64,000 nt of DNA from the NCBI RefSeq assembly GCF_900168255.1, contig NZ_LT799838.1, positions 1,798,001 through 1,862,000 on the forward strand, read 5' to 3'. How positions within the stretch are numbered: the first letter of the stretch is position 1; every line of letters starts with the position of its first letter. This stretch comes from Psychrobacter sp. DAB_AL43B (GTDB lineage: Bacteria; Pseudomonadota; Gammaproteobacteria; Pseudomonadales; Moraxellaceae). Under the pieces are notes generated by a model. It was not told the DNA's origin. It did not search any database and worked only from the letters and a program-made list of their open reading frames with translations. The translations under genes were made by a program, and so were the position numbers. Of the stretch, positions 1 through 4,716 are shown one piece after another.

Positions 1-1938
1 ATGGTCGGGATAAACCTAGACAGCCTTATTCAGAGCGATCAGAGCGATACTTCCGCGCAGATCGCTCAGTGGATTCAGCTAGCGCTTGCGACACCAGTGG
101 TACTCTGGGGAGCGGCGCCATTCTTCGTCCGTGGCTGGCAATCCATTAAAAGCCGAAATCTAAACATGTTTACCTTGATTGCAGTGGGCGTAGGCGCTGC
201 ATTTGGTTTCAGTCTGGTAGCAACCTTTCTTCCGGACATTTTTCCAGACAGTTTCAGAGGTGCCTCTGGTCAAGTCGGAGTCTACTATGAAGCGGCAGCG
301 GTCATTGTGACATTGGTGCTATTAGGTCAAGTTCTAGAACTTAAAGCCAGAAGTCAGACCTCTGGCGCGATCCGTGCGCTACTCGAGCTGGCTCCACCAA
401 CGGCAAGACGTGTGGATGAGAATGATGTCGAGACAGAAGTCTCACTTGACGAAGTTGTCAGCGGTGACACACTGCGAGTGAAGCCAGGAGAAAAGCTTCC
501 CGTAGACGGCACGGTACTTGATGGCAATAGCAACGTCGATGAATCAATGGTAACTGGTGAACCACTACCTGTTGCAAAAACAGCAGGGGATACGGTCACC
601 GGCGGCACAGTCAACGGTACGGGAACATTATTAATTGAAGCGGTCGATGTTGGTGATGACACCGTATTATCCAAGATCGTCAAGATGGTTGCCGAAGCCC
701 AGCGCAGCCGCGCACCAATACAGAAACTGGTCGATAAGGTAGCTGGTTGGTTCGTGCCGATCGTGCTTATCTGCTCCGTCATTACCTTTATTGTCTGGGC
801 TATGTTCGGACCTGCACCTGCAATGGCTTTTGCACTGGTTAATGCCATCGCGGTATTAATCATAGCCTGCCCTTGTGCATTAGGACTCGCCACGCCGATG
901 TCGATTATGGTTGGTACCGGAAAGGGTGCCCAAAATGGCGTGCTCATCAAGAACGCTGAAGCACTAGAGAGCATGGAAAAAGTCGACACCATCGTTGTGG
1001 ACAAAACCGGAACACTGACAGCAGGCAAACCAGAACTCACCGCCATCGAAGCGCTTGGCGGCTTAGATGAGGATGAACTCCTTGTGCTCGTCGCAGCCGT
1101 AGAGAGTGCTAGCGAACATCCTCTGGCAGAAGCTATTGTCAAAGCTGCGAAGGCAAAATCTCTTACTACTGCAAAAGCCAGCGATTTTAGTTCAACCACC
1201 GGTGAAGGCGCACAGGCGCTCGTTAATGGTAAGCAGGTCGCCGTAGGCAACTCAAAATTCATGCAGCGCCTTGATAGTTTTGACAGTGCACTTTCAGAAC
1301 GCGCCGACAAACGCAGGAAGGACGGTGAAACCGTCATATTTGTCGCAGTCGATGGGCAAGCTGCTGGCCTAATATCAGTCGCTGATCCAATCAAGCCGAG
1401 TACGAATGAGGCAATATCGCTACTGCACAAAGCCGGACTGCGGGTGGTCATGCTGACAGGTGACAATGAGATAACGGCCAAAGCGGTTGCCAGTAAATTA
1501 AATATTGATGAGGTGCATGCCGACGTCTCTCCAGAAGACAAAAACCGTATCATTAAAGAGTTACAGAATGACGGTAAGGTCGTGGCTATGGCGGGTGATG
1601 GTATCAATGATGCTCCTGCCCTTGCGCAATCAGACGTTGGCATCGCCATGGGCACAGGAACAGATGTGGCGATGGAGAGTGCTGGCATCACGCTAGTGAA
1701 AGGCGATCTAATGGGGATTGTGAGAGCCCATAAACTGAGCCATTCTACGATGCGCAATATCAGACAAAACCTGTTCTTTGCGTTTATCTACAATGCACTT
1801 GGTATACCGGTTGCTGCTGGCGTCCTGTATCCATTTTTCGGACTTTTACTCAGTCCAATGATAGCGGCGGCGGCCATGAGCCTTTCTTCAGTATCTGTTA
1901 TTGGTAACGCGCTGAGATTGCGCCGTTTGAAGCTATGA
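1..1938 (+). CDS. copA: Cu+-exporting P1B-type ATPase, 3' part (5' end outside window)
   Basis: Pumps Cu+ out of the cytoplasm using ATP and sits in the inner membrane. The 645 visible residues show the whole catalytic core: TGE actuator motif at 185-187, CPC membrane metal site at 290-292, phosphorylated Asp334 in DKTGT, His373-Pro374 in SEHP, and GDGIND at 532-537. The Cu+ subclass marks are present: N590, Y597-N598 and P603 in the seventh helix, and M626 with S629-S630 in the eighth. The N-terminal metal-binding domain and first two helices expected of a roughly 750-830-residue CopA are absent, so the ATG at base 1 is almost certainly internal and the gene begins upstream of the window. 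Downstream lie a copper-type operator and DUF411/DUF305 genes, which fits copper resistance. A Ag+/Cu+ pump of the same class cannot be excluded. Confidence 0.9.
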
Positions 1939-1978: not shown

Positions 1979-1994
1979 ATGACAAAATTGTCAT
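1979..1994. promoter_or_regulatory. CusR/CopR-like copper-responsive operator
   Basis: The palindrome ATGACAA-AA-TTGTCAT lies 100 bases before the DUF411 gene. It matches the published E. coli CusR box core (TGACAA-N2-TTGTCA) at every fixed base. A wider inverted repeat, CAACATGAC (1975-1983) with GTCATGTTG (2001-2009), overlaps it. CusR/CopR are OmpR-family regulators of copper genes, so copper-induced transcription of the genes from 2094 onward is inferred. No copRS pair is present in the window. Confidence 0.7.
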
Positions 1995-2093: not shown

Positions 2094-2711
2094 ATGACAG
2101 TCTTTAAAATCGAATCTAGCTATGTATCTACATCTAATAGCCAGTCGTCTAAGCTATTGCGTAGTACGCTAATATTATTTGCAGCCTCATCACTGTTTGC
2201 TTGTAGTCAACCTGAGAGTAGTGCCTCTACTGCCAGCACGGTAAAAGCTGAGCATCATACTACAGCCACCTCTGTGATGAGTAAGCCAGTAAGCAATCCA
2301 GATTTACTCAAAAATATCTCAGCAACCGTCTATAAAGATGTGAATTGCGGCTGCTGTAAAGACTGGATAAGCCATGCAGAAGATAATGGTCTAGGTACTA
2401 CGGCGCATGATGTTGCGGATGTGGCATTATTTAAAGACCGCTATGGCGTACCCTCTGAGATGCGCTCTTGCCACACAGCAATCACCACCGATGGCTACGT
2501 CTTTGAAGGTCATGTCCCTGCTAAGTATATGGCGCAGTTTTTAGAGAATCCACCAGTACAAGCGCTTGGTCTTGCTGTACCCGGTATGCCGGTTGGTAGT
2601 CCAGGTATGGAATATCAAAATAAATTTGCACCGTATCAAATTATGCAGCTCAATAAAGACGGCACTACTCAAGTTTATGCGGATATTGAGTCTACTGAGC
2701 AACAGTTATAA
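2094..2711 (+). CDS. DUF411 metal-binding lipoprotein
   Basis: A 205-aa protein with a lipoprotein signal (LFAC, Cys37), so probably exported and lipid-anchored. The DUF411 domain occupies about residues 75-200. Cys85, Cys87 and Cys88 in NCGCC and Cys126-His127 in the RSCHT stretch are likely metal ligands. A conserved GHVPA segment follows at 139-143. DUF411 proteins are repeatedly found in copper and silver resistance loci, but the molecular role (periplasmic binding or delivery of Cu+) is not firmly settled. It follows the Cu+ ATPase by 155 bases and has the CusR-like box in its upstream region. The downstream DUF305 gene starts 45 bases later, so co-transcription is likely. Confidence 0.85.
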   Translation: MTVFKIESSYVSTSNSQSSKLLRSTLILFAASSLFACSQPESSASTASTVKAEHHTTATSVMSKPVSNPDLLKNISATVYKDVNCGCCKDWISHAEDNGLGTTAHDVADVALFKDRYGVPSEMRSCHTAITTDGYVFEGHVPAKYMAQFLENPPVQALGLAVPGMPVGSPGMEYQNKFAPYQIMQLNKDGTTQVYADIESTEQQL

Positions 2712-2756: not shown

Positions 2757-3242
2757 ATGAATAATTCAAATCAAAAAGATATGAATAACCAAAATCAGAT
2801 GAACCCCTATCTCAAATTCTCCCTAATGATTCTAACCTCTACGGTCGTCATGTTTATCATGATGTATTTTAATACCTATAAATGGGATCACGTTTATTTT
2901 AGTGAGACCAGAGCCTATATGGCGCTGTATATGGGCGCTATGATGGCAATCATTATGCTGGCCTTTATGACCAACATGTATAAAAAAACCAAAGTAAATT
3001 TAATGATTTATGGTCTGAGCGTAGTGTTATTCGCTTTTGGTCTGTGGGGTGTCAGATCGCAAGCGACTGTTGATCAGGTTGATTGGATGCAAGCGATGAT
3101 ACCGCATCATTCAATTGCTATCTTGACCAGCTCAAGAGCAGATATCGAAGATCCACGCGTACGGAAGCTAGCGGATGACATCGTTGAGGCACAAAAGCGA
3201 GAGATCGGTGAGATGCAAGCCCTCATTGAAGAATTGAAGTAA
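2757..3242 (+). CDS. membrane-anchored DUF305 protein
   Basis: A 161-aa protein with three predicted membrane helices (about residues 19-38, 54-73 and 81-98) followed by a short DUF305-type tail. The tail carries the family's MIPHH motif (His117-His118) and ends in a helical RKLADDIVEAQKREI segment. DUF305 is a ferritin-like helical domain associated with copper and other metal loci; the His pair is a plausible metal ligand. An AAAGG ribosome-binding site lies just before the ATG. It is very likely in one transcript with the DUF411 gene, 45 bases upstream. The combination of three helices and a half-length DUF305 domain suggests a membrane-tethered periplasmic metal binder; this is inference. 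Confidence 0.8.
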   Translation: MNNSNQKDMNNQNQMNPYLKFSLMILTSTVVMFIMMYFNTYKWDHVYFSETRAYMALYMGAMMAIIMLAFMTNMYKKTKVNLMIYGLSVVLFAFGLWGVRSQATVDQVDWMQAMIPHHSIAILTSSRADIEDPRVRKLADDIVEAQKREIGEMQALIEELK

Positions 3243-3385: not shown

Positions 3386-4144
3386 ATGAAAAATCATTAC
3401 AAATTACGCTTCTCTGTTCTTGCTGCTAGTGTTAGTGCAGCATTATTACTAAGTGCTTGTCAGCCAACAGCTGAGAAAGTTGACCCTACTACAACAGAAG
3501 ACGTAGCACCAGTCGAAGCAACTGAGACTGACACTACAACCGCAGCAGACCCGCATGCTGGTCATGATATGAGTGCAGATGCTATGGTAGCAGACGGCAC
3601 ACCAATGACCCCTATGCTCAAAGACTACACCGAATCAATGACTAAGATGCATAAAGAGATGATGATTGGTATGGATTATAACGATCCTGATGCGGCATTT
3701 GCTCAAGGTATGCTTGGTCATCATATCGGTGCAGTGGATATGGCAGAGATTGAGCTCAAGTATGGTACTGATGCAGAAATGCGTAAGCTTGCGCAAGAAA
3801 TCATCGACGCACAGCAGTCTGAAATTGCTACGATGAAAGCATGGCTCGCTGATAACCCTGATGCTAAAACACCTACCGCTGATACCAAAGCAATGCAGCA
3901 AGCCTATGCCGACGGTATGGATGCGATGCATGAAGAAATGATGGCGGGTATCGCCGACCCAGTACCGGATATGGCATTTGCTCGTGGTATGTTACCACAT
4001 CATGTTGGCGCGGTAGATATGGCAGAAACTCAGCTTAAATATGGTAAAAATCCTGAAATGCGTAAGCTTGCTCAAGAAATCATCGACGCACAGCAACCTG
4101 AAATTGAGCAGATGCAAAGCTGGATTGCTGCTCAAAAGGGCTAA
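3386..4144 (+). CDS. tandem DUF305 lipoprotein
   Basis: A 252-aa lipoprotein (LSAC, Cys25) with a Thr/Glu-rich linker and a Met/His-containing segment (DPHAGHDM, residues 55-62). Two homologous DUF305 domains follow. Each contains a GML-x-HH-x-GAVDMAE motif (His112-His113 and His205-His206) and a MRKLAQEIIDAQQ helix. The two halves are close enough to indicate internal duplication. The Met-rich sequences (MTKMHKEMMIGM) are typical of periplasmic Cu+ binders. It probably buffers copper in the periplasm or at the outer membrane; this is inferred from family and neighbours. AAGGAT precedes the ATG at suitable spacing, and a strong terminator follows. Confidence 0.85.
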   Translation: MKNHYKLRFSVLAASVSAALLLSACQPTAEKVDPTTTEDVAPVEATETDTTTAADPHAGHDMSADAMVADGTPMTPMLKDYTESMTKMHKEMMIGMDYNDPDAAFAQGMLGHHIGAVDMAEIELKYGTDAEMRKLAQEIIDAQQSEIATMKAWLADNPDAKTPTADTKAMQQAYADGMDAMHEEMMAGIADPVPDMAFARGMLPHHVGAVDMAETQLKYGKNPEMRKLAQEIIDAQQPEIEQMQSWIAAQKG

Positions 4145-4180
4145 GCAAGGTTTTAATAGATATTTACGACTCTTAAATTA

Positions 4181-4224
4181 AAAAAGCAGCCTCTTAAAAT
4201 ATCATTTTAGGAGGCTGCTTTTTT
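4181..4224. terminator. bidirectional rho-independent terminator
   Basis: AAAAAGCAGCCTC (4181-4193) pairs with GAGGCTGCTTTTT (4211-4223), with further pairing inside the loop. It has a T-run on the plus strand and an A-run upstream. It lies between the convergent double-DUF305 gene (plus) and the cysteine-rich small gene (minus) and can serve both. Confidence 0.9.
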
Positions 4225-4267
4225 GTTTACTATTAATACTATAGAGATCTATAAATTGTGTAATTTA

Positions 4268-4420
4268 TTACTTTTCACCACACTGACAGCATTTCGAGCA
4301 CATATCACATTTGTCACAAGTTGACGCACAGGTGCACCCACATTTCGGACAAGTACAGCTAGAATTATAGTTTACAGACGATACCAACGAGTTAAATTTA
4401 TCTTTAGAAGTAAAGTTCAT
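4268..4420 (-). CDS. cysteine-rich metallothionein-like small protein
   Basis: A 50-codon gene read on the minus strand from ATG at 4420 to TAA at 4268-4270. The AAGGA site at 4427-4431 lies six bases from the start, which supports translation. The first 21 residues are ordinary (MNFTSKDKFNSLVSS...). The last 29 contain eleven cysteines at 22, 24, 27, 29, 31, 35, 38, 41, 44, 45 and 47, with Lys, Asp and Gly between them and no His. This density of C-x-C and C-x-x-C steps is what metallothioneins show, and no signal peptide is visible, so a cytoplasmic Cu+/Zn2+/Cd2+ thiolate cluster is inferred. The pattern differs from the SmtA/BmtA family as I know it, which carries His ligands. It lies convergent with the copper DUF305 gene across a shared terminator. 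Gene confidence is good; metal identity is unknown. Confidence 0.75.
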   Translation of the reverse strand: MNFTSKDKFNSLVSSVNYNSSCTCPKCGCTCASTCDKCDMCSKCCQCGEK

Positions 4421-4716
4421 AATAAATCCTTATTCATGATAGATAACTCATTGTGGCAGGTATTAATAGAGTGTTAAGTAACCTTATTGTCAGTTTAGTA
4501 GATGAGTTAGTTAACGGCTATTAAAGCTATTATTTACTAAATATTTATCTATTTTTAGAGCTGGCGCGTTAAATATCATCGCATGGATACTGTACTTATC
4601 ACTTGCTTAAAAATGTCCAACACGCGTAATAAGGTACATATTAGACCTTACTACCCAGCACTGACAGTCGGTTTCAATTCTATTGCCGCGTATGCCATCC
4701 GTTCATTACATACTAT
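4421..4716. other. intergenic stretch with promoter of the cysteine-rich gene
   Basis: AT-rich, no convincing coding sequence. It must carry the minus-strand promoter of the cysteine-rich gene. CTGACA (minus strand, near 4490) with TATTAA about 19 bases on is a weak candidate. No copy of the CusR-like box seen at 1979 was recognised here. Confidence 0.4.

Follow-up and report, generated by a model that had tools for sequence, protein, structure and literature searches.

A metallothionein-like gene family of Psychrobacter with a recurrent place beside copper genes

A 50-residue, cysteine-rich reading frame from Psychrobacter belongs to what is probably a new family of cytosolic metallothioneins, restricted to this genus and most likely buffering Cu(I). 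The frame lies on the minus strand of the 64,000-nucleotide stretch of DNA analysed here (the window), within a genome of 3.31 Mb that forms a single contig, and those of its relatives that have named records are Psychrobacter. Metallothioneins are small proteins in which some 20% or more of the residues are cysteines, set in CxC, CxxC and CC steps, and which contain few or no aromatic residues. Members of the Psychrobacter family have 10–12 cysteines in 38–50 residues, and the Cys core is devoid of aromatic residues in all 31 members aligned.

The reading frame and its conservation

4268..4420, minus strand: metallothionein-like gene, 50 aa (open reading frame, 31-sequence alignment, purifying selection, 37 loci)
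4427..4431, minus strand: AAGGA ribosome-binding site (sequence; 27-sequence upstream alignment)

The frame opens with an ATG at 4420–4418 and its stop codon ends at 4268. The initial annotation had placed 11 cysteines in the last 29 residues, and this is correct: residues 22–50 hold them in CxC, CxxC and CC steps, all within residues 22–47. The AAGGA site that it had pointed out is likewise present, with 6 bases between it and the ATG; across the 27 aligned upstream sequences its first G is invariant and the adjoining bases are largely conserved. The absence of histidine, on the other hand, is true of the window peptide but not of the family, 26 of whose 31 aligned members have at least one. 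Open frames in 100 dinucleotide-preserving shuffles of the 64-kb window reached at most 9 cysteines per 30 residues, against 11 in the thionein. Another stop-to-stop stretch in the window has at least 8 per 30 residues, and counts of 8 or 9 also arose in 18 of the 100 shuffles.

A search with a 31-sequence profile located the gene in 26 of 105 Psychrobacter genomes (24 of the 97 of good quality), at 37 loci, of which 34 have an open frame and three are degenerate; at L081 the frame is open and the start codon unclear. Conservation of frame and cysteines in related strains had been proposed as a check on the gene, and across these 26 genomes both are kept. The underlying protein alignment (A2) has 31 rows, representing 30 distinct proteins, and omits the two identical copies on plasmid NZ_CP012707, the L037/L087 copy, the three degenerate copies and L081. 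Within it, ten core cysteines are packed into 26 residues with the spacing C-x-C-x2-C-x-C-x5-C-x2-C-x2-C-x2-C-C-x-C, and they are invariant in 31 of 31 sequences, as is the lysine before the third of them; most non-Cys core positions are variable. Ahead of the conserved core lies an N-terminal arm of some 20 residues, which varies. An extra cysteine stands two residues past the fourth core Cys in 13 of the 31 sequences, and within the CxxCxxC run (C-N-C-C type) in 6 of the 31 rows, counted by column. Three open copies, two of them identical and all outside A2, have one core cysteine broken: Tyr replaces the fourth in both NZ_CP012707 copies, and Ser stands at the seventh in the L037/L087 copy.

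The gene is under purifying selection, with a dN/dS of 0.20 between the window copy and that at L017 and a median of 0.24 for the 97 pairs, out of 406, that could be used. By these comparisons the 50-residue frame is a real, conserved gene. Its shortness, and the fact that the family is mostly missing from a large protein collection (see below), are what one would also expect of a chance reading frame or a piece of a non-coding RNA; purifying selection, the Cys frame kept across 26 genomes, a conserved ribosome-binding site and promoter, and an upstream block without consensus RNA structure nevertheless leave that explanation with a practically negligible probability. Barring alignment error, codon-level conservation refutes a chance frame.

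Upstream block and copper neighbourhood

4433..4515, minus strand: conserved promoter/operator block (model R1 from 23 upstream regions)
4450..4458, minus strand: extended -10 element TGCCACAAT (key G, A and T unchanged in all 27 upstream sequences)
4179..4225, no strand assigned: stem-loop with A- and T-runs between the DUF305 and thionein genes, a probable bidirectional terminator (three overlapping terminator-like versions)

Surroundings were clustered for 35 loci, and at 30 of them a regular expression located the gene. Some 80 bases of upstream sequence are common to 27 of these 30 (alignment A3, without L023, L076 and L081); a narrower alignment of 23 (A4) also leaves out L025, L030, L043 and L082. 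Model R1, whose 23 training regions include the window's own copy, gave the window locus 65.9 bits and the next best site in the genome 14.4 bits, with 150 of 1990 first-look candidates scored; on this difference the block appears tied to the thionein gene. A shared regulon, sought in the genome with the upstream model, was not found among the same scored candidates. The block includes an extended -10 pattern, TGnCAnnnT, the assignment of which rests on its conservation in the 27 copies, given that promoter-like sites with TG (three found) are about as frequent as shuffling predicts (2.7). Further invariants in the 27 copies are an A-C/n-A group, upstream of this, and a C 11 bases on, a spacing that could be compatible with a response-regulator site. 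An RNA leader was dropped as a candidate when RNAalifold found no consensus structure in the block. On the other side of the gene, the terminator-like site occurs in three overlapping versions on the plus strand, against 0.3 expected in shuffles, and its A- and T-runs suggest that it may act in both directions.

Beyond this stem-loop lies the copper cluster:

3386..4144, plus strand: DUF305 protein, 252 aa, convergent neighbour (PF03713, E 5e-38)
2757..3242, plus strand: second DUF305 protein, 161 aa (PF03713, E 4.9e-10)
2094..2711, plus strand: DUF411 protein, 205 aa (PF04214, E 1.7e-22)
1979..1994, plus strand: perfect palindrome ATGACAAAATTGTCAT, 100 bp before the DUF411 gene, the sole exact match in the window
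1..1938, plus strand: heavy-metal P-type ATPase, 3' part (PF00122, PF00702, PF19335)

The convergent orientation to DUF305 copper genes described at the outset is confirmed, with 123 bp between the ends of the thionein gene and of the DUF305 gene at 3386–4144. Leftwards from the latter follow the second DUF305 gene, DUF411 and the heavy-metal P-type ATPase, which has 831 aa in full and starts outside the window. To say that the thionein lies just past a Cu+ ATPase is loose as to distance, since the ATPase gene ends 2.3 kb away. The palindrome before DUF411 is one that we take to resemble the E. coli CusR box. A second match in the window has 2 mismatches, and of the 7 remaining copper-linked loci 2 have the core palindrome as well, though at one it does not directly precede DUF411; a search in front of the thionein gene did not find it.

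The pairing recurs elsewhere in the genus. Eight loci have the arrangement of the window, with the thionein convergent to a DUF305/DUF411 cluster and 123–227 bp between gene ends; seven of these clusters begin with DUF305 and that at L079 has DUF411 only. Two further loci carry decayed DUF305 remnants in the equivalent place, convergent with the thionein. These are L024 (genome G029), where the thionein is decayed too, and L085/L040 (G353, contig 6). Altogether DUF305 or a remnant of it lies convergent within 1 kb at 9 of the 37 loci, where 0.06 would be expected, a figure to be taken as a guide that overstates independence, as the loci share ancestry and the limits were chosen after seeing them. 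The tenth locus has DUF411 alone, and in the stretches searched around the other 27 loci neither a DUF305 nor a DUF411 relative came up at E ≤ 1e-5. Other loci adjoin an LD-carboxypeptidase, an MFS transporter, a plasmid gene without Pfam match or a sulphite exporter, among others. The neighbourhood lends support to the proposed copper link, although 27 of the 37 loci lie away from such copper genes.

At L017 the cluster also contains CopB and a multicopper oxidase (Pfam), as does that at L032, which clusters with it. At the eight intact-cluster loci, genes of six different families (bestrophin, DUF6847, TrkH and others) adjoin the thionein on its outer side, so that copper cluster and thionein stay paired while their flanks vary, as if they were one unit. 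The cluster does not need the thionein, which 26 of the 105 genomes carry, against 91 that carry DUF411. An unplanned finding, kept as a lead, concerns MoCoBD_2: a molybdenum-hydroxylase gene of this type lies within 7.5 kb at 6 of the 37 loci against 0.29 expected, in about three distinct contexts. The enrichment input comprised 69 of 77 DUF305 rows and 45 of 60 MoCoBD_2 rows, the rest being second pieces of the same gene.

Relation to known systems and likely metal

PF02069, the model for SmtA and BmtA, matches none of the 31 family members and was not found in any of the 105 Psychrobacter genomes, the Synechococcus control being positive; in the order, 14 of 293 genomes carry a match (12 above the curated cut-off), and Psychrobacter is not among them. 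Like SmtA, BmtA and PmtA, the Psychrobacter proteins are short and Cys-rich, with a CxCxxCxC step, invariant in the 31 sequences (the NZ_CP012707 copies, with Tyr at its fourth Cys, apart), and a CxC near the C-terminus. Unlike the SmtA type, they lack Y-C-x3-C-A-x2-H and have CxxCxxCxxCCxC there; Cys-x3-Cys-Ala-x2-His is invariant in an alignment of 11 SmtA-type sequences (A6) and absent from A2. When the two alignments were compared with hhalign, the CxCxxCxC step was all that aligned, over 13 columns (probability 16%, E 0.0016 for this single comparison), and any relation to SmtA may be very remote at most.

MymT, too, began as a non-annotated Cys-rich open reading frame and later proved to be a copper thionein, as the excerpt cited describes it (PMC7558416). 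The Psychrobacter protein is similarly small and overlooked, and the role in Cu(I) handling that the same excerpt gives MymT (PMC7558416) is one for which it is a candidate; the likeness is one of description, and MymT belongs to the mycobacterial lineage. Bufferins, or oxazolins, are copper-buffering Cys-containing peptides with Sec signal peptides that are modified by MNIO enzymes, according to the part of the source cited (PMC12452194). Here, by contrast, MNIO (PF05114) occurs in 1 of 26 thionein-carrier genomes and is absent from the window's genome. The copper storage proteins Csp1 and Csp3 bind many Cu(I) ions (PMC7558416, as excerpted). They are folded homotetrameric proteins, whereas none of the 31 family members matches any Pfam model. 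Composition and conservation support the view that the Psychrobacter protein would work like a metallothionein, one lying outside the families recognised through PF02069 and MNIO.

We infer that the peptide resides in the cytosol, that it forms a metal cluster holding mainly Cu(I), that metal induces it and that it divides the labour with the neighbouring genes. The thionein gene would have an extended -10 promoter of its own and yield a short peptide made of the variable arm of about 20 residues and the Cys core, often with an eleventh Cys at one of two positions. Its thiolates would enclose a few metal ions in a cluster, most likely Cu(I), thereby lowering free cytosolic copper, while the P-type ATPase and the DUF305/DUF411 genes, joined in two relatives by CopB and a multicopper oxidase, would deal with exported copper. 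Ten to twelve cysteines would be in keeping with several Cu(I) ions in a cluster, or with three to four Zn(II).

The copper linkage and a core without conserved His favour Cu(I) roughly twofold over Zn or Cd, and a mainly Zn(II)- or Cd(II)-binding metallothionein of the SmtA kind, with copper neighbours that reflect general metal-resistance islands, seems to us a serious yet rather unlikely alternative. It would account for the spacing of the first four cysteines, CxCxxCxC as in the SmtA type and just the part that hhalign aligns, and for the 27 of 37 loci that are not beside DUF305/DUF411; it sits poorly with linked genes that are copper genes (CopB, multicopper oxidase), with the enrichment of DUF305, and with the 39 Pfam-scanned proteins, a minority of the neighbours, among which no zinc or cadmium gene was recognised. 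The peptide might instead be a structural zinc knuckle or a small regulator, with one or two bound Zn and another macromolecule as its target. Hints of this kind come from a chance-level PDB likeness to eS27 and an RNA polymerase subunit (E 0.12–0.64), and from the single-sequence AlphaFold model, in which blocks of the Cys region reach pLDDT 73–80 and a short helix appears, features not reproduced with relatives. Ten cysteines within 26 residues, some of them in CxC and CC steps, are, however, more than one or two zinc sites need; the 31-sequence profile matched no PDB chain, Foldseek with the better AlphaFold model returned 0 matches, and most non-Cys core positions vary, all of which makes such a knuckle improbable. 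The models themselves, with mean pLDDT of 66.4 without relatives and 55.7 with them, are too poor to judge the fold.

The layout of a leader followed by a Cys core is also that of a precursor of a modified copper-binding peptide (a bufferin, a methanobactin or another RiPP), and bufferins likewise buffer copper (PMC12452194, in the part cited). Yet with MNIO found in only 1 of the 26 carrier genomes there is little room for this proposal; no gene family, copper genes and plasmid-type relatives aside, is present at more than 4 of the 30 clustered loci, and here it is the core that is conserved and the leader that varies. We regard a RiPP precursor as very improbable and reject the MNIO/bufferin version of it, as 25 of the 26 carriers yielded no MNIO match. 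A cytosolic Cu(I)-buffering metallothionein thus remains the reading that we prefer.

Distribution, annotation and plasmids

Searches of differing reach returned convincing members from Psychrobacter. A single-sequence query matched 11 of 96 genomes, that of the window included, and a scan of genome contigs gave 16 loci, every one in Psychrobacter. At family level (348 genomes) the 26 Psychrobacter genomes were joined by 7 with weak matches (E 8.5e-5 to 8.2e-3), and in a class-level sample of 369 genomes the window genome was joined by 5 (E 1.8e-4 to 9.2e-3). The weak Moraxellaceae matches, 4 of 7 of which were translated, have at most six of the ten core cysteines and all overlap a longer open reading frame; we set them aside as chance or decayed pieces. 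One of them (L072, near 1501, in G099 of another Moraxellaceae genus) is a 47-codon open stretch with the first six core cysteines as CxCxxCxCx5CxxC, after which it ends, and may be chance or a remnant; at L073 the first five core cysteines are kept but located after a stop. The five class-sample matches, all translated, proved to be zinc-ribbon-like or other longer proteins, or to be without the Cys core. The family accordingly appears confined to Psychrobacter, with no convincing relative elsewhere in the family- and class-level samples searched. Thionein relatives were not found among viral contigs, nor in phage records searched with the window protein, nor in a plasmid search with two divergent members as queries.

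The family is also largely hidden from protein databases. A single-sequence protein search gave no match, and profile searches of a collection of 5.77 billion proteins matched only 3 clusters, unchanged even at E ≤ 10, one of which is named 'hypothetical protein'. As that search works through short exact words shared with any member, close relatives should have surfaced, subject to any length limit of the collection, in which the shortest match has 47 residues. With 3 clusters against 29 distinct proteins read from DNA, most of the family must escape gene callers. At E ≤ 1 the 31 members are without a match in Pfam or NCBIfam, and among the papers listed for metallothionein in Psychrobacter, bacterial metallothionein families, copper and plasmids in Psychrobacter, and metallothionein-like small proteins with Acinetobacter or copper, none has a title or displayed abstract opening that describes the family. 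The description of the gene as unannotated needs some qualification: no feature underlies the copies in three Psychrobacter plasmid records, whose gene table is incomplete, but one relative at NCBI is entered as a 'hypothetical protein'. The suggestion of a new and easily missed thionein family stands nonetheless, as its members are conserved, under purifying selection, outside Pfam and NCBIfam, nearly absent from the protein collection and distinct from PF02069.

Three Psychrobacter plasmid records carry a thionein, two of these plasmids being typed as mobilizable and the copy of the third being degenerate, and up to four thionein loci occur per genome (G353 and G373). Plasmid copies and multiple loci suggest that dosage matters. 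In its fullest form, which we offer tentatively and consider doubtful as a whole, our interpretation is of genus-specific, plasmid-mobile cytosolic Cu(I)-thioneins, independent of SmtA and MymT, missed by gene callers and paired with a DUF305/DUF411 island, that may keep copper off molybdenum-cofactor assembly; the idea of such shielding comes from the thionein also settling beside molybdenum genes. A 2020 paper states, in the part cited, that SmtA and MymT were until then the only bacterial thioneins whose biological function had been studied (PMC7387436). A further, apparently independent family, multi-copy and on plasmids, would suggest a repeated origin of bacterial thioneins, which would then hide below the size limit of annotation. 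For finding more of them we offer the pattern CxCxxCxCx5CxxCxxCxxCCxC together with the promoter block, and a peptide of 50 residues is a tractable object of study.

Some details of the individual loci may be added. Five loci (L020, L021, L045, L046 and L082) lie near genes for a xanthine-dehydrogenase-type molybdenum hydroxylase or for the molybdenum cofactor, and the copy on plasmid NZ_MN657020.1 (L076), which is outside the 37 loci, is near molybdenum genes as well. On plasmids and at related loci (L031, L076, L077, L078 and L084) the thionein, which is decayed in L078, follows a same-strand hypothetical protein; one copy of this protein was scanned and had no Pfam match, and the gap to the thionein is about 101 bp where measured. 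On plasmid 1 of P. urativorans R310.10B (NZ_CP012707.1, L077) one run of protein accessions appears twice, with two identical copies of the thionein.
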